Source: a virus. Taken from it: DNA of 64,000 nucleotides. Position numbers and translations under genes: made by a program. Below are positions 4,831 through 59,661 of the stretch, piece after piece; within the stretch, counting starts at the first letter, position 1; each line of letters begins with the position of its first letter. Below the pieces are notes generated by a model. It made no database searches, had not been told where the DNA came from, and saw only the letters and a program-made list of their open reading frames with translations. Where the stretch lies: IMG/VR virus record IMGVR_UViG_3300032665_000006, positions 1 through 64,000 of that record; one strand, 5' to 3'.

Positions 4831-5556
4831 CTATTTCGATAATTGTTTACAGTTTGGACCGTGATTGTACATTTTGAAGTGGCTTTCGCGCATAGTTTTG
4901 CCGCAACCGCAAGTTAGTATGACCTTATTTTTCTCTTTGGTGGCCGCAATAGCATCTTTTTGTTCTTGCAACATTGGTACACCTTTATTTTTGGCAGGTT
5001 TACCTTTTTTAGCTTTACTAATGTTTTCAGCTCGCTCTTTAGTACATGGTCCGTACATCGGGTTGTTTGCTCCGCTGTTTGCTTTGGAGTTTGCTTTTCG
5101 ATGTTCTTCGGTTTGTTTACGACCTTTATTTTTTCCAATATTGCTTTCTCTTAGCTTTTGTTTGTGTTCTTTAGTTTTAGGTTTATCTTTGTGTGTTTCA
5201 CTAATCTTTTTAGATCCAGCTTCTGTTAATATTTTTTTACCAGCAACGTTGCCGTTCATCCATACGTCTTGTCGCTCTAATACTTTGCTACGAGTTAGTA
5301 CTCTTGTTTCCCAGTTAGCCATTTCTTCTACAGTATCAAATGTTCTGCGTATTTCATAATCGAACGCATCTTTGCCTTCTTGTTCTATAATATTGTTAAT
5401 ATTTTCACTACTTGTTGTGTAGTGTTTCCAAAAATCTTCAGCCGGAGTCCTGTTAAGTTTAGTGTAGTTTTTACATCTACTACCGTAATATGCTTTACCA
5501 GTAGATTTGTGTTTAACAACATAGGTATAAGGTTTTATTTTGTTTAGTTCTTTCAT
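4831..5556 (-). CDS. GIY-YIG homing endonuclease with NUMOD3 repeats
   Basis: The N-terminus TYVVKHKSTGKAYYGSR is the GIY-YIG catalytic core, here in the YVV...YYG variant. The middle holds several NUMOD3-type DNA-binding segments (ISETHKDK, EEHRKANSKANSG, NPMYG). The C-terminus has a short Cys/His cluster, CGCGKTMRESHFKMYNHG...C, that could bind zinc. These proteins cut phage-genome sites and spread their own gene by homing. The ATG at 5556 is preferred over an upstream TTG at 5604 because that TTG lies inside the terminator of the capsid gene. A GATAAATA late-promoter motif sits only 5 nt before this ATG and no ribosome site is visible. Confidence 0.88.
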   Translation of the reverse strand: MKELNKIKPYTYVVKHKSTGKAYYGSRCKNYTKLNRTPAEDFWKHYTTSSENINNIIEQEGKDAFDYEIRRTFDTVEEMANWETRVLTRSKVLERQDVWMNGNVAGKKILTEAGSKKISETHKDKPKTKEHKQKLRESNIGKNKGRKQTEEHRKANSKANSGANNPMYGPCTKERAENISKAKKGKPAKNKGVPMLQEQKDAIAATKEKNKVILTCGCGKTMRESHFKMYNHGPNCKQLSK

Positions 5557-5561
5557 ACAAA

Positions 5562-5569
5562 TATTTATC
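5562..5569 (-). promoter_or_regulatory. Late promoter motif GATAAATA, contact spacing
   Basis: It matches seven of eight bases of TATAAATA and ends 5 nt before the ATG at 5556. If used at the T4 spacing, transcription would start at or next to the start codon. Confidence 0.4.
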
Positions 5570-5602
5570 TGTACCGCAACATCGCTATAAATTTTAGTCA
5601 AC

Positions 5603-5625
5603 AAAAAAGCTCCTTGCGGAGCTTT
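5603..5625 (-). terminator. Intrinsic terminator of the major capsid gene
   Basis: On the minus strand an 8-bp stem AAAGCTCC/GGAGCTTT with a GCAA (GNRA) loop is followed by TTTTTTGTTGACT. It lies about 50 nt after the stop codon of gene 23. Its T-run and the bases after it are the same as in the terminator at 3768. Confidence 0.82.
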
Positions 5626-9956: not shown

Positions 9957-11774
9957 TTAAGCGCCAGCGCCACCAGCGGCTGGGCTACCTGCCGACCCGC
10001 CAGGAACTGTTGTAGGCATTGGGCCAGCACCTGCTCCGCCATCAGCTTCTGCGGTTCCTAATCCAGAATCTGCTATTTCTTGGCCAGTTTCAATATCAGC
10101 ATCCATGCCAGCTGGAGTTACACCAACAGAGCGTAAATCTTGACCTGATGTATTATTAAGAGATGCTAAATCGCGTTCTTCTTTCCACAATGTTTCATTT
10201 TCAAGTACTTCTTCATCAGTTAACCCTAAGTAGCGTTTAAGTAAAAAGCGTTTACTCATATATGGTAATGGCTCAATAGCTGTAAAGGTTGCTACACGAG
10301 CTGTGTCTAATTCTGATTGACGATAGCTAGCAAAATTTTGTGGTTCTGTTAAACGAATATTAAAGATTCCACTGTCAATACTAAAGCCTCTCCAGCGTAA
10401 AAATAGCTTAAATTCGTCATCTAACTTCTGCATAATCAGCTTTTGTAAGCGTTCACAGTACTTGTTAAAGCGGAATTCTTGGATTAATGCTGTGCCTACT
10501 TTACCATCATTCATTGCGGCTCCAGAATCGTCTGGTCCTGTTGGCAAATAGCTACTTGGCACACGCAATCCGCGGGCCATTTTGTTATTAAAATATTTTA
10601 AATCGTCAATTTCGCCAAGGTTTTGACCGCCTGGAAGCACTTCAACAGAGCTACCACGGCCTTCACTTGTTTGTGGGAAGAAGTAATCTTCGTTAACACT
10701 TAATGGATTATAGGATGCGTCCATCATGTTAGCGCCGCCGCCCGTTACAGTAGGAATTCTGCGCTGATGCATCTCATTTTTAACACGCTCAACAAAGGCC
10801 ATAGCCATATGACTTGGCATATTACCTACATCGATTTTAAATAAACGTCGTTCTGGAGCTCTTTGTACACGATAAATGAGTACAGAATCTTCTAATAATT
10901 CTTTTTGTTTGTAAACTTTATAAATGTTTTCTAAAATACTTTGTCCGAATGGCCAAAAGTAATCTAAACCTTCATTTAAACTTAAATGTACAACGTGTTT
11001 GGCGTCGATACATGATTCATTCATAGCTTGAGTAAAGCGCCCAGTGCCGCCACCGCCACCACCGCCACCTCCGTTTGGAGCGTTATAGTTATTACCAGTA
11101 GTAACAGATCCAGTTGAACGGCTCACATAATAGTCTGACGTTGTTTTAGACGCCATAGACATATTTTGAAAATTAGGATTAATGTCACGAATAATATATT
11201 GTTCAGGGCGTTTGCCTTCTGACTCGTTAACAATAATACGAGCTACTTTAATCATATCAATCCAGTACATTTCAAATGTTTCTGGATCGCGAACAAATAC
11301 TTGATCGCCATACTTAATAGTATTACGGAATAATTTAAAAATACGCTGATCTAATTTATTAAGTTTAGTCCATTGTATTAATTGTTTTTTAATAATTTCA
11401 ATTTCATGATCAGTTGGCTGATCTGTAAAATCAATATCAAAAGGTGTACTGTTATCTAAGTTTGCTTGTGTACTAAATTCAGCAATAATATCTAAGCAAG
11501 CGTTTACTTCAGAATCACAGTCCATATTTTCATATTGATTGTAACGCTCTAAACGATTAGGATGTCCTGAATAAACTTCAGGAAGACGGCTTGCGTAATT
11601 ACGAAACGCAAATTCATTTCTTGTGCCACTTTCAAAATCAGAACCAGGACGATTGTATCCAGGAAGCCCAAAATTGTTTTTACCAGAAATTGGACTTAAT
11701 TGCCCTAGTTGGTTTGTGTCTGCGATTTTGAAATACTTACGCCAGCCCTGGCGGCTATTACCGTTAGTTGCCAT
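9957..11774 (-). CDS. 20: Portal vertex protein, gp20-like
   Basis: This is the T4 gp20 homologue, the dodecameric portal through which DNA is packaged and to which the neck attaches. Recognisable blocks are YNQYENMDCDSEVNACLDIIAEF near residue 80, LFRNTIKYGDQVFVRDP near 150, and IDAKHVVHLSLNEG and RAPERRLFKIDVGNMP in the middle. It has 605 residues against 524 in T4. The additions include a run of nine Gly near residue 235-243 and a Gly/Ala/Pro-rich C-terminal tail. The start overlaps the end of the upstream homing endonuclease gene by 11 nt. AAAGG precedes the ATG. Confidence 0.97.
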   Translation of the reverse strand: MATNGNSRQGWRKYFKIADTNQLGQLSPISGKNNFGLPGYNRPGSDFESGTRNEFAFRNYASRLPEVYSGHPNRLERYNQYENMDCDSEVNACLDIIAEFSTQANLDNSTPFDIDFTDQPTDHEIEIIKKQLIQWTKLNKLDQRIFKLFRNTIKYGDQVFVRDPETFEMYWIDMIKVARIIVNESEGKRPEQYIIRDINPNFQNMSMASKTTSDYYVSRSTGSVTTGNNYNAPNGGGGGGGGGTGRFTQAMNESCIDAKHVVHLSLNEGLDYFWPFGQSILENIYKVYKQKELLEDSVLIYRVQRAPERRLFKIDVGNMPSHMAMAFVERVKNEMHQRRIPTVTGGGANMMDASYNPLSVNEDYFFPQTSEGRGSSVEVLPGGQNLGEIDDLKYFNNKMARGLRVPSSYLPTGPDDSGAAMNDGKVGTALIQEFRFNKYCERLQKLIMQKLDDEFKLFLRWRGFSIDSGIFNIRLTEPQNFASYRQSELDTARVATFTAIEPLPYMSKRFLLKRYLGLTDEEVLENETLWKEERDLASLNNTSGQDLRSVGVTPAGMDADIETGQEIADSGLGTAEADGGAGAGPMPTTVPGGSAGSPAAGGAGA

Positions 11775-12498
11775 TATTTGTTACCTTTAGTTTAGAAGCT
11801 CTACGAGCTTCTATTGTTTTTCTATACGATGCTTGTCTTTTAGCAATAGTTTCAGAACTTAGTTTTTTACCATACATACCATTATTTTTTCCGCTTGCAG
11901 CTTTTTTCTTTTTCTCTCGTCTATCAGTAGCAAGCGTTGGATCTTGTTCTTCTGCTTTGCGTCGTTTTTCTATGGTAGCATTGAATGAGGCTGTTCTTTT
12001 TTCTATTGTTTGTTTGCTTAACTTGCTACCAGTCAAGGATGTTGCTATTTTATCTCGAGTTTTTTGAAGCACAACGTGCCCTGTAAGAGTTTTGGCAATT
12101 TTATCTGCTACTTCTTTACTTGTAGTGCCTTTATAATTTTTGCGTTGTTCTTCGGTGCGAATCTTGCCTCTATTTTTATTGCTTATTGCTTGTTTAGCTT
12201 CTTCGCTATGCTTCCAACCAGCAAAACAAGCCCACTGATTAATTTTAACATTATCTAAAATACCGCCGTCAATTTTGCGGCCGTGCTTTGTAATTAATTC
12301 TTTTTCAAATTCTTTAGCTTCTTCGTTTGTTAAATTATCTTTAATAATAACTCTACGGTCTAACGGTGGTAACACTATTTTATGTTTGCTGTTAATACGG
12401 TTGTTTTTACCTTTACCAATATAATAAGGAACGTTATCCTTAGTCAAATATTGGTAGACATAGTAGTTACGCCCGTTTTTGCCGTCATTAATTGCCAT
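11764..12498 (-). CDS. GIY-YIG homing endonuclease beside the portal gene
   Basis: The N-terminal YVYQYLTKDNVPYYIGKGKNNR is a GIY-YIG core. Downstream are at least three NUMOD3-type DNA-binding repeats (HSEEAKQAISNKNRG, LTGSKLSKQTIEKR, NNGMYGKKLSSETIAKR). This is a free-standing homing endonuclease wedged between the tape-measure-like gene and the portal gene. Its last 11 nt overlap the portal start, so the portal ribosome site lies inside it. A CTAAATA motif ends 7 nt before the ATG, and no ribosome site is seen. Confidence 0.9.
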   Translation of the reverse strand: MAINDGKNGRNYYVYQYLTKDNVPYYIGKGKNNRINSKHKIVLPPLDRRVIIKDNLTNEEAKEFEKELITKHGRKIDGGILDNVKINQWACFAGWKHSEEAKQAISNKNRGKIRTEEQRKNYKGTTSKEVADKIAKTLTGHVVLQKTRDKIATSLTGSKLSKQTIEKRTASFNATIEKRRKAEEQDPTLATDRREKKKKAASGKNNGMYGKKLSSETIAKRQASYRKTIEARRASKLKVTNNGN

Positions 12499-12516: not shown

Positions 12517-14925
12517 TTAGCTTTGTCGCTGTAATATCTTACGTGATGTATCACTATGCTTTTGCATGCCGTTTATAAGCTGTTCTAATTTGGCTATCTT
12601 CATAGTTGTGAGCTTATTAATTTCAAAAGAATTATCGTCTGCTCCTATATTTTGTATCGGTATCGTTCTGCCGTCTGGTAATGGAACTACCGCTTCGTTA
12701 CCATGTAACATAGCAGCATAACCGCCTTTAGGACCGCTTAAAATACCGCCATTTGCGGCTGATTGCATTTTGCCACCGCCGGATCCAGCTTGAGCCATTA
12801 GCGATGCTACTTCTTTGCCGCGATTACCTACTTGTTGAAACCATTTGCTATCTCTTAATCCTGCGGCCGCTCCGGCAAAGTCGCCGGCGGCAAGAGCCTT
12901 AGCTGTATTTGGAAATTTATTCCACCACTGGCCCATATTAAATGCCAAATCAATCATGGCACCTTTACCAGCTTCATTAGCTTTATCCCATCCTGGAGTT
13001 CTTTGTGCTATCGAATAATGTTTAGCAAAGTCTTGCTCAAACATATCCATAACTTCTTTTTGGCTAAATTCGCGATTCATATCAGACGGTAAAGATTTAC
13101 CATTGCCAATTAAGTGGCCTACCCCTACAGTCCATAGTCCCAGTGAATCTTGATATGGTCTAGTTTTTAAGCCTTCATGCTTAATAATCATTTGCTTAAC
13201 GGCATCCATACCTGCTACTAGTGTGCCGCCGGCGGCACTAACTACACCGCCTGCTGCCGAAGCTCCAGCACCTGCGGCTCCAGATATTATATCTTTAGCT
13301 TTTTCAATTATCGAAGGAGCTGTTGACGCTCCGGGTGTTGCGGCACCTGCCGGACTGGGAGCTGATACAGGAGCTGAAGGAGCTGTCGAAGGAGCTGCTG
13401 CTGGCAAAGAAGGACCCGAAGGAGCAGCTTCTACCGTAACAGAACTAGCCGGGGCGCCGCCACCTACAGCTTTTTGTAATAATGTACTACCTCCGCCTAC
13501 TTGTCCTTCTTTGCCAGCTACTTGACCAGCAGTACCTACGATTTGTTGTGCTACAGAAGTAAGAGCTTTGAATACGGCAGTAACTGGTTTTACACCTAGA
13601 TTTGTTAATTTGTCTAACGACTGTGTGGTATCTCTTTGATTTTGTCTTAGCTTAACTTGACTTCCTGTTTGGCTATCAACAGCATCTATTTGATCTTGTT
13701 GTTGTGCTGTTATAGTTTCTTGCGACTTGGTAGCATCTTTAATTGTGCCAGAAGCCATTTTAGCATATTCATGCATGTCGCCATAAGTTTTACTAAAATT
13801 ACCAACAGTACCTAACATCGATTGTTCGCCAGCTGTATCTTTGGCTCCTTCAACCATTTGTTTTTGTATTACACCAGCGTCTTTAACACCTTTGGTTATC
13901 GATTCAGCGGCTTTTGGCAATCCGCGTTGGAATCTTTGATAGCCTGGACTGTTTACTGCTCCTGCTAAAAATTGCGAAGCATCGTCGGCCATATGTTGGC
14001 CACCTTTAGCAAAAGCGAATTCAATAATTTCTTTGTTGCGTTTTATTTCGGCTTTAGCTGATTCATCTCCAGCATCTGCTCGTTGTTGTAATTCTTGCGT
14101 TTTAGCATTAAACTGTTGTTGCGCTAATGCGTGTTCGTAGACTTTATTTTGTTGTTCAGCATTTAATCCTGTTAACTTTGTTAACCGATCTTGCTCCATT
14201 ATAAAATCTCTGGCGCTTTCTTTTAATTCGTCATTAGTTTGAGTTTTTGTTGACCCACTTAACTGCTGAAGTTTTATATAATTAGCAATGCCGCTGTTAA
14301 TGTCATTAACAGTCATGCCCATATTCATAAAATTAGTTTCTAAATCTGAATTTTTTATTGATGCTGCTACATCAGAAAACTGTTTTGCTCCTTGTGCCGC
14401 TGTACCGCCAAATGTTGCTAGTGTAGTGGCATTTTCCTTCATTAACGAACCGTACTCTTTAATTTCAGCTACGGTATATCCTGCTGATTCAAGATTTTTA
14501 AAAGTATCGCTCATTCCGGTTACTAAACCAGAACGACTTATGCTTTGATAATTTTGAAATAATGCGTCAGCTTGTTTGTTGATTATTGTAATAGCTTTTG
14601 CGGCCGCATTAGCTGCTTTTTTAAGAGCATCTCCTACAATAGGTACTTGCTGAGCAAAGTTACCTAACGCTTGTCCGCCTGCTTCTACTGTGTCGTTATA
14701 AACACTTAATCCAGATTCGCCTTTGATTAAAGCCGAACCCATTTTTAACGCTGATCCTTTTAGTTGATCTAAACTATTTTTTAAATTATCTGTATAATTT
14801 TTAATGCCAGTAGAGGCATCTTTCATAGCCTTAGTTAAATCGGCGTCAATAGGAATACCGTCGGCAAGTTTTTGATTATACTCGTCAATAATTGCTTGTG
14901 CTGCGGCCGGATCAAATTTTGCCAT
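12517..14925 (-). CDS. Tape-measure-like protein A with a T4-lysozyme-type (GH24) domain
   Basis: Residues 1 to about 470 are Ala/Gln-rich, helical and homologous along their length to the next gene. They suit a tail length-ruler or tail-interior protein. A Pro/Ala linker follows near residues 480-560. Residues of about 575-720 are a glycoside hydrolase 24 domain. Glu584, Asp593 and Thr599 keep the exact spacing of T4 lysozyme Glu11, Asp20 and Thr26, and GVGH follows as in T4. After the enzyme comes the segment GGILSGPKGGYAAMLHGNEA, shared with the paralogue and typical of tape-measure C-termini. The enzyme would cut peptidoglycan glycan strands during DNA entry. No classical ribosome site precedes the ATG, which lies 9 nt after the paralogue's end. 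Confidence 0.85.
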   Translation of the reverse strand: MAKFDPAAAQAIIDEYNQKLADGIPIDADLTKAMKDASTGIKNYTDNLKNSLDQLKGSALKMGSALIKGESGLSVYNDTVEAGGQALGNFAQQVPIVGDALKKAANAAAKAITIINKQADALFQNYQSISRSGLVTGMSDTFKNLESAGYTVAEIKEYGSLMKENATTLATFGGTAAQGAKQFSDVAASIKNSDLETNFMNMGMTVNDINSGIANYIKLQQLSGSTKTQTNDELKESARDFIMEQDRLTKLTGLNAEQQNKVYEHALAQQQFNAKTQELQQRADAGDESAKAEIKRNKEIIEFAFAKGGQHMADDASQFLAGAVNSPGYQRFQRGLPKAAESITKGVKDAGVIQKQMVEGAKDTAGEQSMLGTVGNFSKTYGDMHEYAKMASGTIKDATKSQETITAQQQDQIDAVDSQTGSQVKLRQNQRDTTQSLDKLTNLGVKPVTAVFKALTSVAQQIVGTAGQVAGKEGQVGGGSTLLQKAVGGGAPASSVTVEAAPSGPSLPAAAPSTAPSAPVSAPSPAGAATPGASTAPSIIEKAKDIISGAAGAGASAAGGVVSAAGGTLVAGMDAVKQMIIKHEGLKTRPYQDSLGLWTVGVGHLIGNGKSLPSDMNREFSQKEVMDMFEQDFAKHYSIAQRTPGWDKANEAGKGAMIDLAFNMGQWWNKFPNTAKALAAGDFAGAAAGLRDSKWFQQVGNRGKEVASLMAQAGSGGGKMQSAANGGILSGPKGGYAAMLHGNEAVVPLPDGRTIPIQNIGADDNSFEINKLTTMKIAKLEQLINGMQKHSDTSRKILQRQS

Positions 14926-14934
14926 TTTTTATGT

Positions 14935-17088
14935 TTAACTTTGTTTTGCTAATATTTTGTTAGTAATATCATTTTGTTTGCTCATTACTCTAAGCATTGA
15001 GTCCAATTTTTCTAATTCCATAGAAAGTAGCGCAACTTGATCTTTTGATCCAGCTCCTCCGCCGCCACCTTTACTTTGTACTGGTATTGTTTTGCCGTCT
15101 GGTAGTGGAACCACCGCTTCATTACCGTGTAGCATTGCTTGATATCCACTCTTTGGCCCGCTTAAAATTCCACCAGTTGCCGCAGACGGCATTTGTATAT
15201 GTGGAGGATCTCCCGGTAATGGACTAAATCCATATTGTCCTAATAAGCCTGAAGATTGTAAATCAGCTACTTGACTTGAATTAATATCCAATGCTTTGCC
15301 AACATTGTGTAAACTTTTGCCAGGCGCAGCTTTTGGGTTGCCACCTGAATTTACATTAGCTTGTTCATCCATGGATCTAAAAGCAGAATTAACTTGTAAT
15401 TTTTTACCAGTTGAACTAAAGTATGCGCTGGCCATTTGTACAAAATTGTTTAGTACCGTTGGATTCAATTGTTGGAAATGTGTTTTGTCGCCAGTACCGC
15501 CTGAGAAATTTATAAGGCTATCCAGTGTTGCGCCGCTAGTTGAAGGAGGTGTAATAGGTGTAACTTTTGGCGGTGCTGGTGCTCCTGGAGCTGCTCCTGC
15601 GGCCGGCGCAGCTTCTCCGCCTATTCCAATTTTTTGTAATAATGTACTACCGCCACCCACTTGACCTTCTTTGCCAGCTAATTGCCCAAGTACGCTGGTT
15701 AATTGTTGGGTTACACCTGCTAATCCCGATAACCCTCTTGTAACTAATGGCACACCAACGTTAACAATTTTGTCAGTAGATTGTGTTATGTCTCTTTGAT
15801 CTCTTACTGTATCAACCATAGAACCAGTAGCAGAATCAGTTGCTGCTATTTGTTCTTTTTGTTGATCAGTAGCTTCTTTATTAGCTACCGCATAATCTTT
15901 TGTTGACGCCGCTGCTAATTTTCCTACTTCTTGAATAGGTGTAAAAATTTCATTAAATTTTCCATAGATACCTAGTTTAGATTGATCTGCCGCCAATGTT
16001 TTAGCATCACTAACTAATAAATTTTGTGCTTTACCTACATCTAACCCGCCTTTATCTAAGTAATCAGCGGTTGTAGAAAAACTTCTTTGGAACGCTTGAT
16101 AACCTTTTGAGTTAACTGCTCCGGCAATATAAAGTTGAGCTTGTTTAGCAGCTTCCGGACCGCCTTTGGCCATAGCAAATTCAATTAATGCTTTGTTTCG
16201 TTTTAGTTCTGCTTTGGCTTGTTCATCCCCTGCGGCTGCTCTTTGCTGTAATTGATATGTTTTAGCCGCAAATTGTTCTTGTGCTAATGCGCCTTCATAA
16301 ATTTTATTTTGTTGATCAGCAGTTAACCCAGTTACTTTAGTTAATTTGTCTTGCTCTATAATAAACTCAGTGGCACTTTGTGCTATTTGTTTATCATTTT
16401 GTTGTTGCGTTGATCCGCTTAACTGTTGTTGTTTTATATAATTGGCCATACCACTGTTGATATCACCAACAGTCATACCCATACGCATAAACTGAGTTTC
16501 TATCTCAGAGTTTTTAATAATTTTTGATGCTTTAGCAAAATCAGCTGCTCCTTGGGCGGTAGTACCGCCTAGTGTAGCTAATGTTGTGGAATTTTCTTTC
16601 ATTAGCGAACCGTATTCGCCAATTTCTTTCATTGTATAACCAGCCGCTTGTAAATTCTTAAATGCGTTGTCCATACTAAGAGCAACACCAGAACGGCTCA
16701 TAACTTGATAATTTTCAAACAATGAATCTGATTGTTTAGCTGCAGCATTTTCATAAGCTGCTGCCGCTTCTGCTACTTTACCTAATGCGTTACCGACAAC
16801 AGGAAGTTTCTTAGCCCAATTACTAAAAGTTTTTGCGCCTTTATTGATTGTATCGCTATAAACAGCAGCACCTGATTCTCCGTTGACCATGGCCATGCCA
16901 AGAGATTTCAAACTGCCAACAAGTGCTTCTTGACTAGCTTTTAAGTTTTTTGAATAGTTTTTGATGCCCGTAGAAGCATCTTTCATGGCTTGATTCAATT
17001 CAGCCGAAATTGGAATACCGTCAGCTAAATGCTTATTGTAGGTATCAACAATATCTTGAATTTCTTTTGGGTCGTATTCTTCTGCCAT
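14935..17088 (-). CDS. Tape-measure-like protein B with an M15-type peptidase domain
   Basis: The N-terminal 460 residues are paralogous to the neighbouring gene, with shared blocks such as HLADGIPI, MKDASTGIKNY and NGESGAAVY. Residues of about 540-635 match peptidase family M15 (VanY or L-Ala-D-Glu endopeptidase type). An SAFRSMDEQ motif is followed by SLHNVGKALD, with His594 and Asp601, and then PPHIQ with His630, giving the His-Asp-His zinc set. The C-terminal GGILSGPKSGYQAMLHGNEA is shared with protein A. The enzyme would cut peptide stems of peptidoglycan. The start is set by alignment with the paralogue. A perfect TATAAATA lies only 6 nt upstream. Confidence 0.85.
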   Translation of the reverse strand: MAEEYDPKEIQDIVDTYNKHLADGIPISAELNQAMKDASTGIKNYSKNLKASQEALVGSLKSLGMAMVNGESGAAVYSDTINKGAKTFSNWAKKLPVVGNALGKVAEAAAAYENAAAKQSDSLFENYQVMSRSGVALSMDNAFKNLQAAGYTMKEIGEYGSLMKENSTTLATLGGTTAQGAADFAKASKIIKNSEIETQFMRMGMTVGDINSGMANYIKQQQLSGSTQQQNDKQIAQSATEFIIEQDKLTKVTGLTADQQNKIYEGALAQEQFAAKTYQLQQRAAAGDEQAKAELKRNKALIEFAMAKGGPEAAKQAQLYIAGAVNSKGYQAFQRSFSTTADYLDKGGLDVGKAQNLLVSDAKTLAADQSKLGIYGKFNEIFTPIQEVGKLAAASTKDYAVANKEATDQQKEQIAATDSATGSMVDTVRDQRDITQSTDKIVNVGVPLVTRGLSGLAGVTQQLTSVLGQLAGKEGQVGGGSTLLQKIGIGGEAAPAAGAAPGAPAPPKVTPITPPSTSGATLDSLINFSGGTGDKTHFQQLNPTVLNNFVQMASAYFSSTGKKLQVNSAFRSMDEQANVNSGGNPKAAPGKSLHNVGKALDINSSQVADLQSSGLLGQYGFSPLPGDPPHIQMPSAATGGILSGPKSGYQAMLHGNEAVVPLPDGKTIPVQSKGGGGGAGSKDQVALLSMELEKLDSMLRVMSKQNDITNKILAKQS

Positions 17089-17115: not shown

Positions 17116-17955
17116 ATGATTTCAAACAATCCATTAAGTCAATATTTTAGACAACCAGCAATTTATATCAAATTGCCTAGCCAAGGCAAATACTATCCCC
17201 CAGGCGCATTAGATATGCCGCAAACAGGGGATTTACCAGTGTTGCCCATGACTGCCATTGACGAAATCACTTATCGTACACCAGATGCGTTATTCAGCGG
17301 CCAAGCCGTTATTAATGTTATACAAAGTTGTGTTCCCAATATCAAAGATGCTTGGTCTATCCCATCGATTGATATCGATACTATTTTAGTAGCTATTCGT
17401 ATCGCTAGTTACGGGCATGAAATGGAGTTTGCTACACAATGTCCAGCTTGTAATAATACCGACGATTATGGTGTTGATTTGCGTACGGTATTGGATCAAA
17501 TGAAAGCGCCAGATTATACAGCATCGATACATCAAGGCGATATTGAAATCTTCTTTAAGCCAATGACTTACAAAAACTTGTCAGATAACAATAAAATTCA
17601 ATTTGATGAACAGCGTATATTCCAAAGTATTCCTACAGATGGCACCGTAGATACACAACAAATTACAGCTATGTCACAAGCTCTTAAAAAGATGACTGAA
17701 ATGACAGTTGTAGCATTATCACAAAGTATTATGACAATTAAAACTCCAAGTGCTATGGTAACAGAACCCGAATATATCGCTGAGTTTATGGCAAACTGTG
17801 ACCGTGCGTTGTTTAATCGTATTCAAGATTATGTAATTGAACATAAAACACAAGCCGAAATGCAACCAGTCACTATTAAATGTAGTAAATGCGAAAATGT
17901 ATATAAACAAAATATTACATTGGACATGACAAGTTTTTTCGGGCGCGCCTCCTAA
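17116..17955 (+). CDS. 26: Baseplate hub assembly protein, gp26-like, with zinc ribbon
   Basis: The opening LSQYFRQPAIYIKLPSQGKYYPPGALDMPQTGDLPVLPMTA is typical of the T4 gp26/baseplate hub family of aquatic T4-like phages. A CPAC pair near residue 112 and a CSKC pair near residue 258 form a likely split zinc ribbon. It has 279 residues; the T4 protein is shorter (about 208). AAGGAAAATCCC precedes the ATG. It opens a two-gene plus-strand unit and is divergent from the tape-measure-like gene. Confidence 0.85.
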   Translation: MISNNPLSQYFRQPAIYIKLPSQGKYYPPGALDMPQTGDLPVLPMTAIDEITYRTPDALFSGQAVINVIQSCVPNIKDAWSIPSIDIDTILVAIRIASYGHEMEFATQCPACNNTDDYGVDLRTVLDQMKAPDYTASIHQGDIEIFFKPMTYKNLSDNNKIQFDEQRIFQSIPTDGTVDTQQITAMSQALKKMTEMTVVALSQSIMTIKTPSAMVTEPEYIAEFMANCDRALFNRIQDYVIEHKTQAEMQPVTIKCSKCENVYKQNITLDMTSFFGRAS

Positions 17956-18666: not shown

Positions 18667-18828
18667 CTATTTTTGTGTGTTTGCGATGTTAGCTGATTGT
18701 TCTTCAAATAAATCTGTGAAGTTTGTTTTAGATGCTCGTTCTTCTTGCTGTCTTTTTATCGCTGCCTGATGTTTCAGCCGTTGCTCTGCCCAATACTTTT
18801 CGTCTGCCGGTTCAAATTTGTGTGACAT
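18667..18828 (-). CDS. Small charged protein of 53 aa
   Basis: This frame starts MSHKFEPADEKYWAEQRLKH and ends in TAG at 18667. The protein is strongly helical and rich in Glu, Lys, Gln and Arg. The ATG shares its A with the stop codon of the upstream GIY-YIG gene (TAATG), which indicates coupling. An AAAAGGAAAAA ribosome site lies at a suitable distance. I do not recognise a family, and no motif points to a function. Confidence 0.72.
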   Translation of the reverse strand: MSHKFEPADEKYWAEQRLKHQAAIKRQQEERASKTNFTDLFEEQSANIANTQK

Positions 18829-19256
18829 TAAATTTTTCCTTTTATATGACTACCATGTACACGCACTTGTATGTGCCCGTTATAGTAATCATCAGATTCT
18901 AATACTTTGCGACTAAATTGTTCACGAGCCTCTACATAACTACATTCAGCCTTGGACCTACAATAGTATAGTATTTCTCTCGTAAAACTGTTGATGCCTA
19001 ACTTTTCGATGTCTTCGTTTAATTCTATGTTGCTGCCGTAATATAGTTGCCAGTCGCTGTCTATTTTCGATTTAATTTTCTTGCGTTTTTTGTTGCCGTT
19101 CTTTTGTTTTACTGTTTTATATGTTGTTTTACTAAATTTTGCTAATTTTTTACCAATATACTTCCTACCAGTGAGATTATTTGTAATTAGATAAACAAAT
19201 CCAACACAATCTTCCGGTAACGCTTCAATAATTTTATTTTCGAAAAGCCAAGACAT
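18828..19256 (-). CDS. GIY-YIG fold protein of 142 aa, Seg-like
   Basis: The GIY-YIG core is FVYLITNNLTGRKYIGKK at residues of about 19-36. A basic Lys-rich insertion follows, then SDWQLYYGSN, a REILYYCRSKAECSYVEA segment with the expected Glu, and a C-terminal YYNGHIQVRVHGSHI. It lacks the NUMOD repeats seen in the other GIY-YIG genes here. A conserved family of this kind is common in T4-like phages, so it may be a resident nuclease rather than a homing element. It ends in a one-base overlap with the 53-aa gene. The start codon has no obvious ribosome site. Confidence 0.82.
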   Translation of the reverse strand: MSWLFENKIIEALPEDCVGFVYLITNNLTGRKYIGKKLAKFSKTTYKTVKQKNGNKKRKKIKSKIDSDWQLYYGSNIELNEDIEKLGINSFTREILYYCRSKAECSYVEAREQFSRKVLESDDYYNGHIQVRVHGSHIKGKI

Positions 19257-21063: not shown

Positions 21064-22076
21064 AGGTTTTGGTAAATTTTTAATAATAACTTAGGATCAT
21101 AAAATTCTGATTCTATGTTGGTAATTTGATCAGTTACAATTTGATCTACTGATTCAAATTTAACATCGCCAGGTGCTAAATCAATATCAATATCAGTACG
21201 CTTACTAGGAATTAATGCCATTTCACGCAAATTGTAATCTTTAATAAATGTTTCTTTAATAAAATTAGCTTCTTCGTAACTAATGTCGATATCTAACTCA
21301 ACACGAACGTGCATATTTGGTACAAGTATATTAGCACCGTTGTCAATAGCTTCGCTAAGTTTCATAACACGATATAATGGTTGTCCAGGCCAAGCATGAT
21401 ATTGCTGTGGTTTGCCCCATTCTAATACCATCATGCCACGCTTATTATCTCCAGCATCAGCAAAGTTATGTGGAAAGCAATTACCAATGTAATTAATATT
21501 CCCTTTAGTTTGACGCAAATGAAAATGTCCTGAAAATACATTTTCGACACCTTTAAAATTATCTACGCTAATTTCTCCATGATCCGGCATCTCTACCATA
21601 GCGTTCATTTTAAAATGCGGAAGTTCAAAATGTCCAAACATATATTTTGCTGACATTTTAGACAACTTTTTGTGGTCGTCTCCAACTAACCAAGGAGCAA
21701 TAATAACATCGCCACGCTGAAACCAATCATTGACAATAACAATATTAGGTATATGCTTGGCCCATTCAGCCCCATGGATGTCCCGTTTATCACGATAGTA
21801 CAAATCATGATTACCAGGAATAAAATAAAAAGTATCAAAAGCAGCACTTAATTTCTCCAAACACCGTAATGAAGTATGTAATGTTTGCATATTGATTGAT
21901 GCTCGATGGTGGTGCCAATCACCTAAGAAGAAACCAGTTTCGCACCCTTCTTCTTTAGCCTTTTCAATAAACCAATCGATAAATTTTTCACAGTCGTTTA
22001 AGTGTACAAGGCTGTTAGACTTTAAACCAAAATGAATATCTGTCATCACGGCAGCTTTTTTAAATAAGTTACTCAT
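21060..22076 (-). CDS. 47: Recombination endonuclease subunit gp47 (Mre11/SbcD-like)
   Basis: This is the metallophosphoesterase nuclease partner of gp46. The motifs appear in order: TDIHFG (about 12-17), FLGDWHHHR (about 50), PGNHDLYYR (about 92), FGHFELPHF (about 150) and FSGHFHLRQ (about 184), which together bind the two metal ions. Its 338 residues match T4 gp47 (339). The start overlaps the end of the upstream homing endonuclease gene by 8 nt. Confidence 0.97.
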   Translation of the reverse strand: MSNLFKKAAVMTDIHFGLKSNSLVHLNDCEKFIDWFIEKAKEEGCETGFFLGDWHHHRASINMQTLHTSLRCLEKLSAAFDTFYFIPGNHDLYYRDKRDIHGAEWAKHIPNIVIVNDWFQRGDVIIAPWLVGDDHKKLSKMSAKYMFGHFELPHFKMNAMVEMPDHGEISVDNFKGVENVFSGHFHLRQTKGNINYIGNCFPHNFADAGDNKRGMMVLEWGKPQQYHAWPGQPLYRVMKLSEAIDNGANILVPNMHVRVELDIDISYEEANFIKETFIKDYNLREMALIPSKRTDIDIDLAPGDVKFESVDQIVTDQITNIESEFYDPKLLLKIYQNL

Positions 22077-22836
22077 CTTTTATTTCCCATGCCTTGTATC
22101 CATTATGCGATTCGCTTTTAATAGTTTTTTCGATTACGAGTCTTGCGGTTTGCTTTGTTACTCGATTGAATTCACTTTTACTTTTGTATTGTAGCACACT
22201 TCCGTCAGGATGTTCAACTAATATGGCAATACTAACCTTGGCAGCCCCTTTGAGTCCGTTTTGTCGATTTATTTCTTTCACTTGCTCGATATTTTGACTT
22301 TGCCACGCTTTAATTTTTTCGCCACGCTTAATTTTTTCATCTGGGTTAGCTTCGTAATATCGTTTAAGTGTTTTTGATTTTTCTTGATAAACTTCTTCGG
22401 TATGTAAATGCTTTACTAATTCTTTGCGTTCTTCTGCGGTAGTGTTTGCCCATCTTTTTTTATTATAATCACGCCAATGTTCGCCGAGGGCTTCTCGGAT
22501 AATGATAAGATCATCATTGCTCATATTAGCCCAACTACCGGCACTCAATCCGTCGCCACCAAGACTAGCATTTAATCCATTTTTGTAAGTATCGTTATCT
22601 TTAATGTATTTGATTTCGGCTAATGCTAATTTTGATACTTCTGTAAATCCGCGCTCTATAACTTCATATACGCAATTTTTAATACCGGCGGTTCGCATAG
22701 CTTTGTGAATTTTTCGTTCGGAATTATGCTTAAACGCTTCGCGACAATGATCCTTCCAGCGATATTGCTTATATTCTGGCTTTGTATCTAGTCCATAATA
22801 GACTTGATTGTTTACGGTAATTTTGTATATGAACAT
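22069..22836 (-). CDS. GIY-YIG homing endonuclease between gp55 and gp47
   Basis: The N-terminus MFIYKITVNNQVYYGLDTK is the GIY-YIG core. An Arg in the HKAMRTAGIKNCVYEVIERG region and a Glu in ALAEIKYIKDND suit the remaining active-site positions. The C-terminus, HPDGSVLQYKSKSEFNRVTKQTARLVIEK, looks like a NUMOD1 helix-turn-helix DNA-binding module. It overlaps gp47 by 8 nt. A CTAAATA motif lies 23 nt upstream of the ATG. Confidence 0.9.
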   Translation of the reverse strand: MFIYKITVNNQVYYGLDTKPEYKQYRWKDHCREAFKHNSERKIHKAMRTAGIKNCVYEVIERGFTEVSKLALAEIKYIKDNDTYKNGLNASLGGDGLSAGSWANMSNDDLIIIREALGEHWRDYNKKRWANTTAEERKELVKHLHTEEVYQEKSKTLKRYYEANPDEKIKRGEKIKAWQSQNIEQVKEINRQNGLKGAAKVSIAILVEHPDGSVLQYKSKSEFNRVTKQTARLVIEKTIKSESHNGYKAWEIKDE

Positions 22837-35200: not shown

Positions 35201-35720
35201 GTGGATACAAGATACAACAGGCACAGTTACACAACCATTGCCTCCAACTATTGATGAATTGACAACAGCGTATGCTGGCTTACAAGATTATAAGATGATT
35301 AGTGACAATATGATTCTTAATAGTGTAGAATTTTTGCCATTGTTTGGTAGTAAAGCACCAGAAGCATTGAGAGCGACTATTAAAGTAATTCCTGCTGCTA
35401 ATACAAACGCAAGCAATAATCAAATTCGTAATTTAGTGTTAGCAACAATGAACGCATACTTTGATATTGCTAATTGGAATTTTGGCGACACATTTTACTT
35501 CTCAGAATTGGCGGCATATATACATGCACAAATCGGAACTTATGTTGCCTCGGTAGTGTTGGTACCATTAAATCCACAAAAGAGTTTTGGTGATTTGTAT
35601 GAAATACAATGCGCTCCGTATCAAATATTTGTTAACGGCGCAACTATTAATGACATTGAAGTGATTACATCGTTGACTAGTACTAACTTACAAACTGCTC
35701 CTGGCAGCGGAGCAATTTAA
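32292..35720 (+). CDS. 6: Baseplate wedge protein, gp6-like, enlarged
   Basis: The start SYDFETLRKSFIDYLRQYYPETFNDYIESSEFIALLDVMAFMGQALAFRTDLNTRENYIDTA is the gp6 signature (baseplate J-like family). gp6 forms the wedge ring around the hub. At 1142 residues it is much larger than T4 gp6 (660). The extra material lies in the middle and is rich in Thr, Asn and Tyr, resembling the beta-rich style of the giant protein that follows. The C-terminal part returns to family form (ADFGD-like strands near LNPQKSFGDLYEIQCAPYQIFVNG). The stop overlaps the next start by one base (TAATG). Confidence 0.93.
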   Translation: MAQTTRQTVLFGVEDWKRIYQTYSEGDFQSYDFETLRKSFIDYLRQYYPETFNDYIESSEFIALLDVMAFMGQALAFRTDLNTRENYIDTAERRDSVIKLANLVSYAPQRNTEASGYLKVFSVQTTENVTDYNGVDLANITVNWADPSNFDWQEQFTAILNAALVDTQYVGSPGNDQNILGVDTQEYTINLVPGYLPVIPYTATVDGVNMPFEAVNATSLGETYIYEPPPLPNGQFNILFRNDQLGYQSANTGYFFYFKQGVLQNQDFNLVESIANRTVDINIEGVNNTDVWLYQLDNLGNLRQLWNKVDSVYAAAVEQMTPTLRTVFSVTSRTNDQITLVFGDNVFSAIPVGQFRNYVRASNGLQYIINPEDMQSISIPISYVSRTGSIETITFTCGITTPVTNAAPRETIDQIKQRAPARYYTQNRMVNGEDYTNFPFTTYNSIIKSAALNRSSIGSSRYLDLVDPTGKYSSTNVFGSDGALWYINNTPAFTFTYQTTNDINNVILNDITPLLIQATMKQFYYAYFPRPNLQSLNYSWNESTTIVNETTGYFVNSSGTPVVVGPTASNNAKFIVETSLIKFVPPSGYHFDSKNELQPGLPVSDDDHLVIWASPTAIYGNGTNGGVGNLADGTGPVVLNTYVPTGAIAVQVIPLLTSTFSTQLKQSIANQIYLKANFGLGYDSTGTITGTPYTWYLITAANLDVGASWSQTYAGNTSGANLDASWLIQATFDGSQYTVISRSLDYYFGSVLEVRFFFDTDQAIYDSRTGTVISDFAKVLKTNSQPYNNSPLLADIPLKIIGQPVLSDGLVDDYQVLVGYEDNNTGIPTDPDFFQEIVGVSPSSTALPQPYVFFQLTVDFDNLERYLLQPEGIVVADYPTLAEIEIIKTQYPTGQVFYAYAENAFYTLILNLNGSLSVVATPGWVAQVGRQSLYFQYRHNSALTSLIDPGSTNIIDLYVVTAEYYTAYVQWIQDTTGTVTQPLPPTIDELTTAYAGLQDYKMISDNMILNSVEFLPLFGSKAPEALRATIKVIPAANTNASNNQIRNLVLATMNAYFDIANWNFGDTFYFSELAAYIHAQIGTYVASVVLVPLNPQKSFGDLYEIQCAPYQIFVNGATINDIEVITSLTSTNLQTAPGSGAI

Positions 35721-38700
35721 TGGCCGCAAAAATCCGTTCAGTTGATTTCCTGCCGGAAATATTTCAAACCCCAGTAAACAAACAGTTTCTGGATGCCACA
35801 CTCGACCAATTAATTCAAGAGCCAAAATATAAACAGACTCAAGGATATATAGGACAAAAGGTTGGCCCAGGTGTAAATCCTGCCGACAACTATGTGGTAG
35901 AACCTACTAAAGTTCGTAATGATTATCAATTAGAACCTGGTATTGTATCGCTTAGTCCAACAACTTCAAAAATCGATGATGTCATTACCTATCCAGGTAT
36001 TATTGATGCTTTATCAACTCAAGGCGGCATAACAAATCAAGCAGATCGTTTGTTTGAAAGTGAATATTACTCTTGGGATCCATTTGTTGATTTTGACAAA
36101 CTTAATAACTATGCTCAATATTATTGGGTTCCAAACGGACCAGATTTAGTTACAGTAGCGCCAACAGCTATTCCAACAGAACAAACATTTACAGTTACTC
36201 GCACTAATGGAGCATATACTTTTAGCGGCTACACTGGTAATAATCCTGAATTGACATTAGTTCGTAACGGAAGCTATAACTTTGTTATTGCTCAAACAGA
36301 TCCAGTAACAGTTCAATATCGTGTTACAAATAACGGATCTAGTAGCTGGGCAATTAATTATCAACCAAATCCTACATTAACATTAGTTCGTGGCAACACT
36401 TATATCTTTAATTTAATACAAACAGCAAACTATGCTTTTTATATTAAAACTCAAGAAAGTTATGGTACTACTAACTTATGGACTGAAGGAGTTACTAACG
36501 GCGGCGCAGCTCAAGGGCAAGTTACTTTTACTGTTCCACAAGATGCTCCGGATACATTATACTATTGTAACGATTTAGAATTTAATTTACGCGGTCAACT
36601 TAACATCATTGATGCTTCTGCCGGCACAGGCCCAGAATTTTGGATACAAACAGAACCTGGTGTTGATGGACGCTTGCCTTGGTCTCCTAATATCTCTGAT
36701 AGAGATGTTTTAGGAGTTGTTAATAACGGTATTGATCTCGGAACCGTAACTTTTAATGTTCCTGATGTTAACGCACAGAATTTTTATTATTCTATGCCTT
36801 ATATTGGATATCCAACATCAACAACAGGAAAGGTTGATTTAATTTGTTCGTCTTTTACTTACGATCAACTTAACGGAGTTTCAGTACAACAATTTTTAAC
36901 AAACAATCCACAAGGTATTGACGGAATTACTAACCTTAATTCTCGTACATTAATTTTTACTACACAGTCATCTGATCCAGACTCGGGCGGTTGGTATAAT
37001 GTTACACCTTTTGATCCATTACAGCCTTCTGATAATAATCAAACCGGGGCATTTGATACTACAGCATTTGCTGAAGCAACTCCAATTACTGATCCGTCCA
37101 TTCAATTCAGTTTGTGGCAAATTCAATATGTTAATGATGTTAACGGTGTGCCATTTATAAAACTTAACAGTATTTTGTCAATTTCAGATTTAACACAATT
37201 TTCTGTTGCTTATGGCGCACAATATATTAATACTCAGTGGTATAAAAATGCTGAAGGCTTTTTTACACAGATGCCATTGCTTACTGCCGCATTGCCACAG
37301 TTATACTATCAAGATAGTATAGATCCAAGCATTTTTGGCGTAATTAATTTAATCGAAGGTAACACTAATAATAATGTACCGCCTTTATCGATTACAAATA
37401 TAACTTCAACTGGCACATCAGTAACATTAACATTTGCCGCACAACAAACAGCACCATATTCTATTGGTAGTACAATTATTGTATCTGAAGTTAATCCAGC
37501 ACAATACAATGGCGATTATGTTGTTACTGGATGTACAACATCGACAGTAACTTATTCTAGTACAGTTACCGAAAGTTATGTAAACAGCGGCACAATTAAT
37601 GCTATTAGCATCAATGCTTTTATTAATGTTGACACAGATATTTTAGGTAAAACTAATTATGTAAGTCCAAATGGGGTAACATTTACAAACGGACTTAAAA
37701 TTGTTTTTGAAGGTACAGTTTACCCATCAAGTTATGTAGGCAATACATATTATGTACAAGGTGTAGGATCAAGTATTGTATTAGTACCAGAAACTAGTTT
37801 AGTAGTTCCTGAAACTTACGCTGTAGAAATCGATGGTGAACCTGTCGTTCCTGATTATATGACCATCAATATGGCTAGTCAGGATCTTAATCCTTGGAGT
37901 CGTAGTAATCGCTGGTTCCACATTGATGTTATTGATGCCGCGGCCGCGTATAATGATATAGTACCAGATTTTACCAATGTACAGCGAGCTAATCGTCCTA
38001 TTTTAGAATTCCGTGCCGGAACAAAATTATTTAATTTTGGCACACAAGGTCTTCCTGCAATTAATATTATTGATTTTACACAAACTAACGCATTACTTAA
38101 TGTTAATGGGCAACCAAGCTACGGAGTAGATGGTTATAATTTAGTCGATGGCAGTTTAGTTATATTTGCTGCCGACTCTAATCCAGAAGTTGCTAATCAA
38201 ATTTATCAAGTTAATTTTGTAGTAGTGGATCCGGAAGTATCAACCGTACCTATTATTGATTTAACGCCTACAAGTTATAGTCCAGCATTAGCAAATCAAA
38301 CGACAGTTTGCCTTAATGGAAATACTTTAACTGGACAAAGTTTTTATTATAATGGCGTTTCGTGGAGTCCTCCGCAAAATCCTTGGATTATTTCAAGCTC
38401 TACTCAGCCAGCTAATACAACACCGGTGGTTCAATCATACGCAACACAAGTACTTGCCGAGGGATTAAACGCTACACAACAAAAATCTACGGTTAATCAA
38501 CCACCTTTGTTTGATGTTTATGACATCAATGGATATAGTTTTGGCGATATAGAAAAGTACCCAAGTACAAACTTCACTGGTTGTAAATTATTAAGCTACG
38601 CTGAAAATCCTGATAATCCAGCTGATGCTGTATTAGGCATTCCGTTAGCTTTCTTTAGTATTGATAATATTGGTGATATTTTATTCGACAATAATTTATA

Positions 38701-41700
38701 TAATGACACATTTATCTATACTCCATCTGGCACAGGTACTACAGTAAATGTAAGTAGCGGGTTTGTTTATCAATATTCAGACAGAATAGCATTTACTCCA
38801 GAGATTGGCTGGCAAACAGCGGCGATTCCATCATTACCTCGCCAACAATTTCAATTTAGTTATGCTGGTGTTCCATTACAACTTGACATTGCTGTTGAAA
38901 CAAGTCTCGATGTTCCAGCAGTACAAGTATTTGTTAATAATGTTTATCAAGTTCCATCAATATATACACTTTCAGTCAATACTACTACTAATGTTTCTAC
39001 TATTACATTAAATGGCACTTATGTTACTGGTGATATAATTGAAATACTTGCTTATAGTAGTCAAGTAAGCGCACAAGGTTTTTATGAAGTTCCTATCAAT
39101 CTTGAAAACAATCCGTTCAACGGAAATTCAAAACAATTTAGTTTAGGTACAATTCGTAATCACTACGGTACAATTTGCGAAAATTTAGTTGATTTACAAG
39201 GTCCTATAAATGGAAGAAATAATACTCGCGACTTAGGCGACATTGTTCCTTTTGGCCAATTAATTTTACAACAATCTTCGCCTTTAACATTAGCTGGATA
39301 TTTCTTACGCTCACCAAACTATGATATTTTTGCTGCTTTAGAATATAACAGTAGAGAATATATCAAATATAAAAATAAATTGTTAACGGCAGTTACACAA
39401 TTAAATCTTAACGGCACAGAAACTGTTTCGCAAATTCTTGATTTAGGTGTAAGAAATATTACACAAAGTTTAACAAGTTCTGATCCATTTTATTGGTCAG
39501 ATATGTTGCCTGTTGGGACAAATTATACTTCTAGTACAACAGTTGTAAATCCTATTACTACCGCAACATTTAACACAATTCAAACATACGACTTTACTTC
39601 GTCAAATTATCTTGGTTTATTAGTATATGTTAATAATGTATTATTAGTTCGTAACAGTCAATATGTTGTATCACCTGACGCTCCTAAATTAACAATTTTA
39701 ATACCATTAAATGTTGGCGATGTTGTAACGATTAATGAATATCCAACTACTGTAGCCAGCTGGTGTCCTAACACACCAAGTAAAATGGGCTTATATCCTA
39801 AGTATACTCCAAGTATTTTTGTTGATGAAACTTATTCAGAGCCAACAGTAGTAATTCAAGGACACGATGGCAGCATCACTATTGCTTTTGGTGACATTCG
39901 TGATCAAGTATTACTTGAATTTGAAAAGCGTATATACGATAACATCAAAGTTGATGACAATCCAATTCCATTAACTACTGATGAAGTTGATCCTGATTTT
40001 TACCCAGCACAAACTACAGCATTGTTGCCTGGCTTCTTCCGTAAAACTCCATATAGTTACGAAGAAGTTAACCAAATAATGAGTGAAGACTTTTTAACTT
40101 GGGTTGGACAAAATAAAGTAGATTATACACAACAAAATTATGTTGCTGATAATCCTTTCACATACAATTATATTCAAGCTGCTAATCGCATTGATGGCAC
40201 AGAATTCCTACAAGGTAACTGGCGTGGAATTTATCGTTACTTCTACGATACAGAAACTCCTAATACTACACCTTGGGAAATGGTTGGATTTTCGGAAGAA
40301 CCAGCTTGGTGGATTACACGATATGGTCCTGCTCCTTATACTGATGGCAATACAGTATTGTGGGATGATATGGAACTTGGCTTAGTTGCCGATCCAACAG
40401 GTCCTTATGTATTACCTGAATATGCTCGTCCTGGATTAAGTGAAATTATTCCTGCCGGATCAGAAGGCGAACTATTACCTCCGTTTGAATCTGTTATGGG
40501 CAAAAATGATCCATATGGATTCCAACAATCTTGGGTAGCTGGCGATGGCGGACCAGTACAAGCATCTTGGTGGAAGAGTAGTTCTTATCCATTTGCTATT
40601 ATGCGTTTGTTGGCATTAACTAAGCCAGCACAGTTTTTCTCATTATTCGCCGACAGAGATTTATATCGTTACAATACTACATTAGGTCAGTATTTGATGA
40701 ACAATCGTTATCGTTTAGATGCTTCTGGCGTTCAAGTGTATGGTAACGGAGTAAGTAAAGCAAGTTATATCAACTGGATTGTTGATTATAATCAACAAAC
40801 AGGCATTAATAGTACTACAGCACTAACTGAAGATTTAGCAAACTTAGATGTACGACTATGTTATCGTATGGCTTCATTCTCTGATCCAGTGTATGTACAA
40901 CTATTCACTGAAAGAGCTGGCCCAAACTCTACAAATAATAGTTTGTTGATTCCGCCAACAAGTTATGATTTATTATTTTATAAAAATCAACCTTTTAATC
41001 AGATTACATATAGTTCTGTAATTGTACAAGTAGAAGAACTAGAAGGTGGCGGCATCGGCTATTCTGTATTTGGATACAGCAATGTTCAACCATATTTTGA
41101 AATATTAGTAAGTAGTCCGGTTGGCTTATATCAAACTATTTCAGCAGGCGACATAACAGTTCAAGTACCTTCACAATATACAGCTAATGTAAAACAAATT
41201 CCTTATGGCTATGTATTCACAAGTCCTGCTAGTGTTTGCGACTTTTTATTAGGTTACGGAGCATGGCTTACAAGTCAAGGATTAGTATTTGATGATATCT
41301 ACAACGGTTATACATTAGATTGGAAACAAATGGCGCAAGAGTTTTTATACTTTGGCGCTCAAGGATGGCAAGCAGGCACAATGATTAATTTAAATCCTTG
41401 TGCTACTACTATCAAAGCTAGTCAACCTATTAGTATTGTGGACACTATTGCTAGTGTTACACCAGAAAATATGTTGTTAGATCAAAATCGATTTGTACTT
41501 GATGTTAGAACAATGGTTGTTAACCGTAATGGCAACGAATTTTCTGTTACTACAACTAACGGCCAAACAATTAACTATCTTACATTAAAGTTTACAAATT
41601 ACGAAGATATGATTGTATTGAATAATACTAGTCAATACAACGATTTAATTTACGATCCAATCACCGCGGCTCGTCAAGTACGCTTGAGTTTAATAGCCTC

Positions 41701-51536: not shown

Positions 51537-52211
51537 ATGTATTATATATATTATCTAATTGACCCGCGTACTAGCCTTCCGTTTTATGTAGGAAAAGGCA
51601 AAGGTAATCGGGCATACGATCATTTAAACGGGCGCGACGCTGGCATTAACAAACGAAAAGATGCAAAGATTGCTAAAATTCGTAGACTTGGATTAGAACC
51701 AACTGTTGAATATCCGGTTACTAATATTATTGACGAGAATTTAGCATATCGACTCGAAGATGATCATATATTAATGTTTGGTCGTAAAGATTATGATGCT
51801 AACGGAATACTTACCAATATATGTATTAATGCTGTTTCGTCAGCAAAAATGCCAGAAGCAAGAGAAAAAAATCGACTTGCTCATTTAGGTAAAGTAACTA
51901 GTGAAAAAACTAAAGAAAAACAAAGTTTAACAGCATTATCCAAAGGTGATAATCACCAAGCAAAATCATCAGAAAGTCGGTTAAAGAGAAGTATTGCTAT
52001 GTTGGCTAAGGGTGAACAGCATCATAATAAAACACTCGAAGCTAGAGCAAAAATAACAGATTCTGCCGAAAAAACCCCAGTAATAGTAGAAGGAATTTTA
52101 TATCGTTCTCTAACTGAAGCGGCAAAATCATTAAAATTAGGCAAAAGTAAAATTTTTTATAGATTAAAAAGTCCTAATTTTCCTACATACAACTATGTTG
52201 AAAGAGCATAA
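51537..52211 (+). CDS. GIY-YIG homing endonuclease with NUMOD3 and NUMOD1 segments
   Basis: The core is YIYYLIDPRTSLPFYVGKGKGNRAYDHL, a GIY-YIG of the type with YVGKGKG. Helical NUMOD3-like parts follow (AREKNRLAHLGKVTSEKTKEKQ, SRLKRSIAMLAKGEQH). The C-terminal GILYRSLTEAAKSLKLGKSKIFYRL fits NUMOD1. It begins with no gap after the stop codon of the preceding structural gene and was probably acquired by homing there. Confidence 0.9.
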   Translation: MYYIYYLIDPRTSLPFYVGKGKGNRAYDHLNGRDAGINKRKDAKIAKIRRLGLEPTVEYPVTNIIDENLAYRLEDDHILMFGRKDYDANGILTNICINAVSSAKMPEAREKNRLAHLGKVTSEKTKEKQSLTALSKGDNHQAKSSESRLKRSIAMLAKGEQHHNKTLEARAKITDSAEKTPVIVEGILYRSLTEAAKSLKLGKSKIFYRLKSPNFPTYNYVERA

Positions 52212-59581: not shown

Positions 59582-59632
59582 AAATAAGTGTTCAAATAAA
59601 AGTTTATTTGTTTACTCCCCCATCCGTAGTAC

Positions 59633-59640: not shown

Positions 59641-59661
59641 TCATCTCCCCTTAGGACTCTC

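Follow-up and report, generated by a model that had tools for sequence, protein, structure and literature searches.

A conserved pair of paralogous, tape-measure-like proteins bearing complementary cell-wall hydrolases in uncultured T4-like phages

Why would a T4-like virus carry, side by side, two large genes that are built on one scaffold and differ in the cell-wall hydrolase set into it? The question is raised by ORFs A and B (Table 1) of an uncultured virus record of 133,477 bases, bases 1-64000 of which make up the stretch of 64,000 nucleotides analysed here and referred to as the window. ORF B, the first copy, precedes ORF A, and 9 nt separate the stop of B from the start of A. A sequence-only reading of this DNA had described two genes with a common N-terminal half and a common C-terminal segment, and had made its proposal depend on homology between the N-terminal halves; by BLASTP, 270 of 483 residues of the N-terminal part were identical (56%, E 7e-169), as were 46 of 86 at the C-terminus (53%, E 3e-23), where the GGILSGPK motif begins at residue 726 of A and residue 639 of B. 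Between scaffold and C-terminus, no significant match of A to B was found by BLASTP. The presence of twin paralogous scaffolds with different hydrolases is thereby confirmed.

Table 1. Positions of the gene pair, its domains and the neighbouring tail and head genes in the window
Feature	Coordinates	Strand	Basis or content
ORF B, copy 1, 717 aa	14935..17088	-	helical scaffold + M15/VanY peptidase + tape-measure-type C-terminus
B scaffold, residues 1-486	15631..17088	-	56% identity to A; helical by prediction
B M15/VanY peptidase domain, residues 520-636 (H594, D601, D627, H630)	15181..15531	-	PF02557; fold match; motif
B C-terminal GGILSGPK..LHGNEAVVPLPDG segment + terminal helix	14935..15195	-	BLASTP; phrog_9807, phrog_1292, phrog_15478
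ORF A, copy 2, 802 aa	12517..14925	-	scaffold as in B + GH24 lysozyme + C-terminus as in B
A scaffold, residues 1-485	13471..14925	-	BLASTP vs B; scaffold tree
A GH24 (T4-lysozyme-type) domain, residues 575-713 (E584, D593, T599)	12787..13203	-	PF00959 4e-13; T4 lysozyme chains
A C-terminal tape-measure-type segment	12517..12771	-	53% identity to B; phrog_9807 1.3e-4
gp26 baseplate hub gene, divergent from pair	17116..17955	+	PF12322 2.4e-14, phrog_150 9.7e-17
gp20 portal gene, downstream of pair	9957..11774	-	PF07230 5.8e-101
gp5-type hub protein, 504 aa	28634..30148	+	PF04717 (OB domain) only; w/o lysozyme domain

The domain in A is a GH24 phage lysozyme and, on the basis of its sequence, a predicted muramidase. 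The Pfam family Phage_lysozyme (PF00959) matched residues 582-710 (E 4e-13), and T4 lysozyme chains matched the domain with E values to 3e-12, aligning E584, D593 and T599 with E11, D20 and T26 of the T4 enzyme; these three residues, whose intact spacing had been noticed from the letters alone, are kept in 6 of 6 GH24 orthologues. In B, the VanY family PF02557 matched residues 540-610 with an E value of about 9e-6, just above the family cut-off. The residues H594, D601 and H630, which the same reading had named, fit the M15 motif, and D627 (in DPPH), which it had missed, likely serves as the catalytic acid/base, as in M15C-type enzymes; the M15 orthologues of B's subfamily retain all four residues. 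Structure prediction, which had also been proposed, was of uneven value. The peptidase domain of B was modelled by AlphaFold with a pLDDT of about 80-90 across most of its length, and its best Foldseek matches were LdcB/VanY and the LysB4 endolysin (prob 1.00), so that zinc ligands, acidic residue and predicted fold together identify it as an M15/VanY peptidase. The model of A was poor (mean pLDDT 47.5), and its GH24 assignment therefore rests on homology to T4 lysozyme.

The pair lies in a tail module, between gp26 and the portal gene, and its T4-like neighbours in the window also include genes for the gp23 major head protein, the gp25 and gp6 wedge proteins and a gp5-type hub protein. The last of these matched phrog_13211 at 24-335 of 887, not reaching the lysozyme end of the profile; as this gp5 has its OB domain and lacks a lysozyme, A and B have likely assumed the task of opening the wall. 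Pfam searches of the window record and of two related records detected no T4 sheath or tube gene, so that the tail itself is deduced from the genes for gp26, gp5, gp25 and gp6.

The description of A and B as tape-measure-like is partly supported. In its favour, beside their place next to gp26 and a scaffold predicted, with low confidence, to be all-helical, the C-terminus of B matched three PHROG profiles, all annotated 'tail length tape measure protein' (phrog_9807, 4.5e-7; phrog_1292, 9.8e-6; phrog_15478, 5.7e-5), as did that of A, from 1.3e-4 (phrog_9807) to 3.9e-4. In each case the regions matched were the C-terminal ends of the tape-measure families. In one long relative (L019, copy 1), linker repeats also matched several tape-measure families, to 1e-21. 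Against it, hhalign detected no homology between the scaffold and T4 gp29 (probability 2%), comparison of the scaffold profile with solved structures returned coiled-coil-type noise only, and Foldseek of the whole of B gave no match outside the peptidase domain. In AlphaFold models of low confidence (mean pLDDT of 59.4 for B), helices were predicted across most of residues 6-469, partly compact, with residues 140-410 looking more like a compact helical domain than a single long rod.

The search for phages with the same gene pair, suggested by the sequence-only reading, was rewarded. Viral contigs were scanned first with individual proteins and later with an alignment of scaffolds (37 loci in the widest and last scan), and pairs were identified by profile search across the ORFs of the relative loci. 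About a dozen uncultured relatives in all have an adjacent, same-strand pair, as seen in the window lineage, L012, L013, L017, L040, L019 and L020 and also in L045, L047/L053, L048, L049, L062 and L064, with partial pairs elsewhere; in the relatives, too, the pair is located between gp26 and the portal gene. Genome contigs of bacteria and archaea were scanned for the scaffold as well, and no relative was found. Cassettes were assigned by Pfam, except that the M15-like cassettes of L019, L020, L045, L047 and L064 were recognized by the motif HxxGxAxD...H, with extra weak BLAST support for L019 and the motif only for L064. M15 was found paired with GH24 in the window, L012, L013 and L040, and L016 and L018 were counted with these, the peptidase end of copy 1 lying at the contig edge in both. 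M15-like/GH19 pairs were found in L019, L020, L047/L053, L061 and L064, M15/SLT pairs in L048 and L049, and the reversed order, GH19/M15, in L062. Every pair with both cassettes readable thus combines one peptidase with one glycan cutter, and no readable pair in the window family has two enzymes of one class. Single scaffolds also occur, in two lineages: with GH19 in L055-L058 and, in L063, with an unassigned domain that appears by eye to be SleB-type hydrolase-like.

The history of the two parts was followed in a maximum-likelihood tree of 35 scaffolds, in which 15 copy-1 and 15 copy-2 scaffolds formed separate clades (support 99/96 and 100/98) and the single copies, L062 and L059 made up a third group. 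The AU test rejected trees in which the M15 copy of L062 was placed with the copy-1 scaffolds (p 1e-4) or its GH19 copy with the copy-2 scaffolds (p 8e-4), which rules out a simple inversion; the likeliest origin of the reversed order is therefore a separate duplication, or conversion between the copies, a reading for which the long branches advise caution. The cassettes appear to tell a different story from the scaffolds. The GH19 domains of the second copies of L019 and L047 are 93% identical on scaffolds that are 47% identical, an apparent recent transfer of the cassette between phages (L019 11168-14869; L047 7093-10743); the M15 domains of window B and L062 copy 2 are 74% identical with scaffolds at 38%, and the cassettes of window B and L048 copy 1 are 77% identical with scaffolds at 49%. 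Cassettes that are more alike than their scaffolds across lineages are a mark of exchange, and these identities indicate that the hydrolases move independently of the scaffolds, with slower evolution of the enzyme domains contributing in the milder cases. Exchange of cassettes coupled with unbroken complementarity provides the strongest sign of selection on the pairing. The twin scaffolds probably arose by tandem duplication and were kept as a functional pair. A duplication of scaffold helices in the long forms L019, L020 and L047, considered on account of weak second HMM matches, was unsupported by direct comparison.

The design had been thought uncommon, and this did not hold: pairing is the rule in the window's phage group, and an analogous twin exists in T4-like cyanophages, where two adjacent large ORFs (~720-1565 aa) follow gp26-gp51 and precede a gp27-like tail gene. 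These twin 'endolysin' ORFs of the Kyanoviridae (phrog_790/phrog_1200; S-SM1, S-H25, S-CREM2, S-SCSM1) resemble the window pair in their adjacency, in their assorted cassettes and, in most, in mutually paralogous N-termini (hhalign E 2e-27 in typical members). By profile comparison, no homology was detected between the window scaffold and the cyanophage twin scaffolds, or between the cyanophage twins and T4 gp29. Profiles of the twin scaffolds gave weak or no matches to copy 2 of S-SCSM1 and to the twins of S-CREM2 and S-N03, which are accordingly regarded as analogues by place and architecture. The cassettes comprise GH24 and an amidase plus Hydrolase_2 in S-H25, glucosaminidase and VanY in S-SCSM1, and VanY in copy 1 of S-CREM1. 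Unlike in the window family, complementarity fails in some: S-CREM2 and S-N03 carry GH19/GH24, and in S-SM1 both GH24 and M15 are on copy 2 (L004 6804-9560), its twin having no recognised enzyme. Mass spectrometry of CsCl-purified virions detected both twins of S-CREM2, with 73 and 71 unique peptides (PMC10665884), and both the glucosaminidase and VanY twins of S-SCSM1 (PMC9602691). These data concern analogues and not the window family. The authors described the proteins as endolysins or considered a structural role unlikely, and the twins are not discussed as paralogous scaffolds in the passages of the two reports that deal with them (PMC10665884, PMC9602691).

Taken together, A and B are probably structural proteins of tape-measure type that belong to a T4-like contractile tail and deliver complementary wall hydrolases at entry. 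Each would begin with a helical scaffold housed in the tail tube and end in a tape-measure-type segment, with a flexible linker and then a swappable peptidoglycan-hydrolase cassette between the two. During assembly, the scaffolds would fill the lumen of the tube, anchored at the hub or tip; upon contraction, the tube would cross the outer membrane and the scaffolds would exit it, whereupon one hydrolase domain would cut the glycan strands of the peptidoglycan and the other its stem peptides, so opening the wall. The tail lysozyme would thus have moved from gp5, where T4 carries it, to tape-measure-type proteins. We infer the location in the tail tube, the presence of both proteins in the same tail and their action at entry.

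Whether both proteins serve as rulers is less certain. A single twin could be the ruler and the other an accessory carrier of a hydrolase, or particles could be heterogeneous, taking up either copy in no fixed mix. We regard this as unlikely, despite several observations that accord with it: the single-scaffold relatives (L055, L063) indicate that two copies are not essential, the copies of a pair have diverged (27-55% scaffold identity), and the lengths of the cyanophage twins do not covary, except in S-CREM2. Moreover, with published tail lengths, the longer twin alone gives about 0.14-0.15 nm of tail per residue (0.138-0.153 nm) in S-N03, S-H34 and S-SCSM1. Against it, the lengths of copies 1 and 2 change together in the window family (Spearman 0.93, n=11 related pairs), and the peptide counts of the S-CREM2 twins are similar (PMC10665884). 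Complementary pairing has also been conserved and has evolved anew, as would suit two proteins used together in a single particle. In S-CREM2, with its tail of 418 nm, the longer twin gives 0.267 nm per residue and the sum of both 0.138; its long low-complexity linkers may be extended, the twins may lie in series, or another protein may be the ruler. The four cyanophages are too few for length against tail to settle the ruler role. The S-CREM2 tail is the longest known of a cyanomyovirus, and neither twin alone spans it as a helix; both gp208 and gp209 (L081 5484-14555) are expanded, by different low-complexity repeats. ORF124 of this phage (2668 aa), the length of which would fit 418 nm, was considered as the true tape measure and set aside, its N-terminus appearing baseplate/fibre-like by eye. 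A bolder form of the preferred reading, which we put forward only tentatively and hold to be somewhat less probable than its negation, is a heteromeric tape measure, in which both paralogues would occupy one tube at fixed stoichiometry and bring glycosidase and peptidase jointly to the tip, with exchangeable cassettes and matched scaffold lengths, and which would have evolved more than once in T4-like phages.

Two further explanations would place the proteins outside the tail. Encapsulation in the capsid was proposed for the two 'endolysins' of S-CREM2 by the authors of that work, in which the twins were detected in virions without a location (PMC10665884), and A and B might likewise be ejected with the DNA in the manner of T7 internal proteins. 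The window pair adjoins the portal gene, and the cyanophage twins with GH24 match phrog_2083, 'internal virion lysozyme motif', the match running through the lysozyme domain. We nevertheless judge a capsid location improbable, given the tape-measure-type C-terminus, the position of the cyanophage twins within a baseplate-hub gene cluster and the lack of a detected capsid core protein signature. Least probable is that A and B are lysis endolysins, the name given to analogues by PHROGs and several GenBank records. In favour of this are matches to the 'endolysin' families phrog_7 and phrog_13118, mainly via the catalytic domain, and the PF00959 match of A, the sole one in the 133 kb record, but this record is a fragment and the absence of a second lysozyme says little. 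Against it, a common scaffold of 480 residues with a tape-measure-type C-terminus is foreign to lysis endolysins, and the analogues are virion proteins.

Single virion proteins that join a glycan cutter to a peptide cutter are represented by gp13 of phi29 and CwlP of SPbeta; both bond types are attacked by these at entry, as is predicted here, but with the enzymes on one polypeptide instead of twin scaffolds. Attack on both bond types by one virion is not new in principle. Neither are hydrolases on tape measures, as known for mycobacteriophage TM4, coliphage T5, staphylococcal phage phiIPLA35 and phiCbK, the gp95 of which has a CHAP domain (PMC6116005, PMC3556154). Like A and B, these are tail-length-type proteins with a wall hydrolase for entry; they are single proteins, whereas in the window, which belongs to a T4-like contractile phage, two paralogous scaffolds stand in tandem and their hydrolases complement each other. 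T4 itself has the gp26, gp5, gp25 and gp6 genes in common with the window, and the window GH24 domain is related to T4-type lysozymes; the differences are the lack of gp29 homology and the position of the lysozyme, on a scaffold protein and absent from gp5. A protein of ~880 aa with a VanY-type domain, similar to B, is found in Campylobacter phage NCTC12673, where its M15 gene stands shortly after a baseplate-hub gene, and in Vibrio phage Va1 (phrog_13118), in both as one copy with peptidase only. A literature search found no description of twin tape measures in T4-like phages, and a conserved twin scaffold with complementary, exchangeable cassettes seems undescribed in the literature searched. 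In many T4-like phages no protein is assigned as the tape measure, and a search for it in pelagimyophages is reported to have failed (PMC7029224); if this role belongs to the twins, a gap in the structural inventory of abundant aquatic phages would be filled and two-chain tapes would become a testable idea. The cyanophage twins carry the label 'endolysin' despite their presence in virions. The conserved and re-evolved pairing of glycan and peptide cutter suggests that both activities are of benefit when the wall is breached at entry, and in the exchangeable cassettes there is natural material for studying the adaptation of phages to host walls.

Other features of these records deserve mention. 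Homing-endonuclease genes (SegE GIY-YIG, NUMOD3 and I-TevI-type DNA-binding) stand among the structural and recombination genes of the window at 4831-5604, 11764-12498 (between ORF A and the portal gene), 18828-19256 and 51537-52211, and a possible further one, similar by eye and without a Pfam match, lies at 22069-22836. Directly after the gp6-like wedge gene, a single ORF of 5004 residues occupies 35720-50734, in the first 600 residues of which no Pfam family was found above cut-off. Four radical-SAM genes, three with SPASM domains, are located at 58427-63222, a density unusual for a phage, beside genes at 54898-57887 that appear by eye to be glycosyltransferase-like. The second half of another record (G000 positions 63245-80992, L029) has many genes of metabolic type as judged by eye, including desaturase, monooxygenase and amidohydrolase-like genes.
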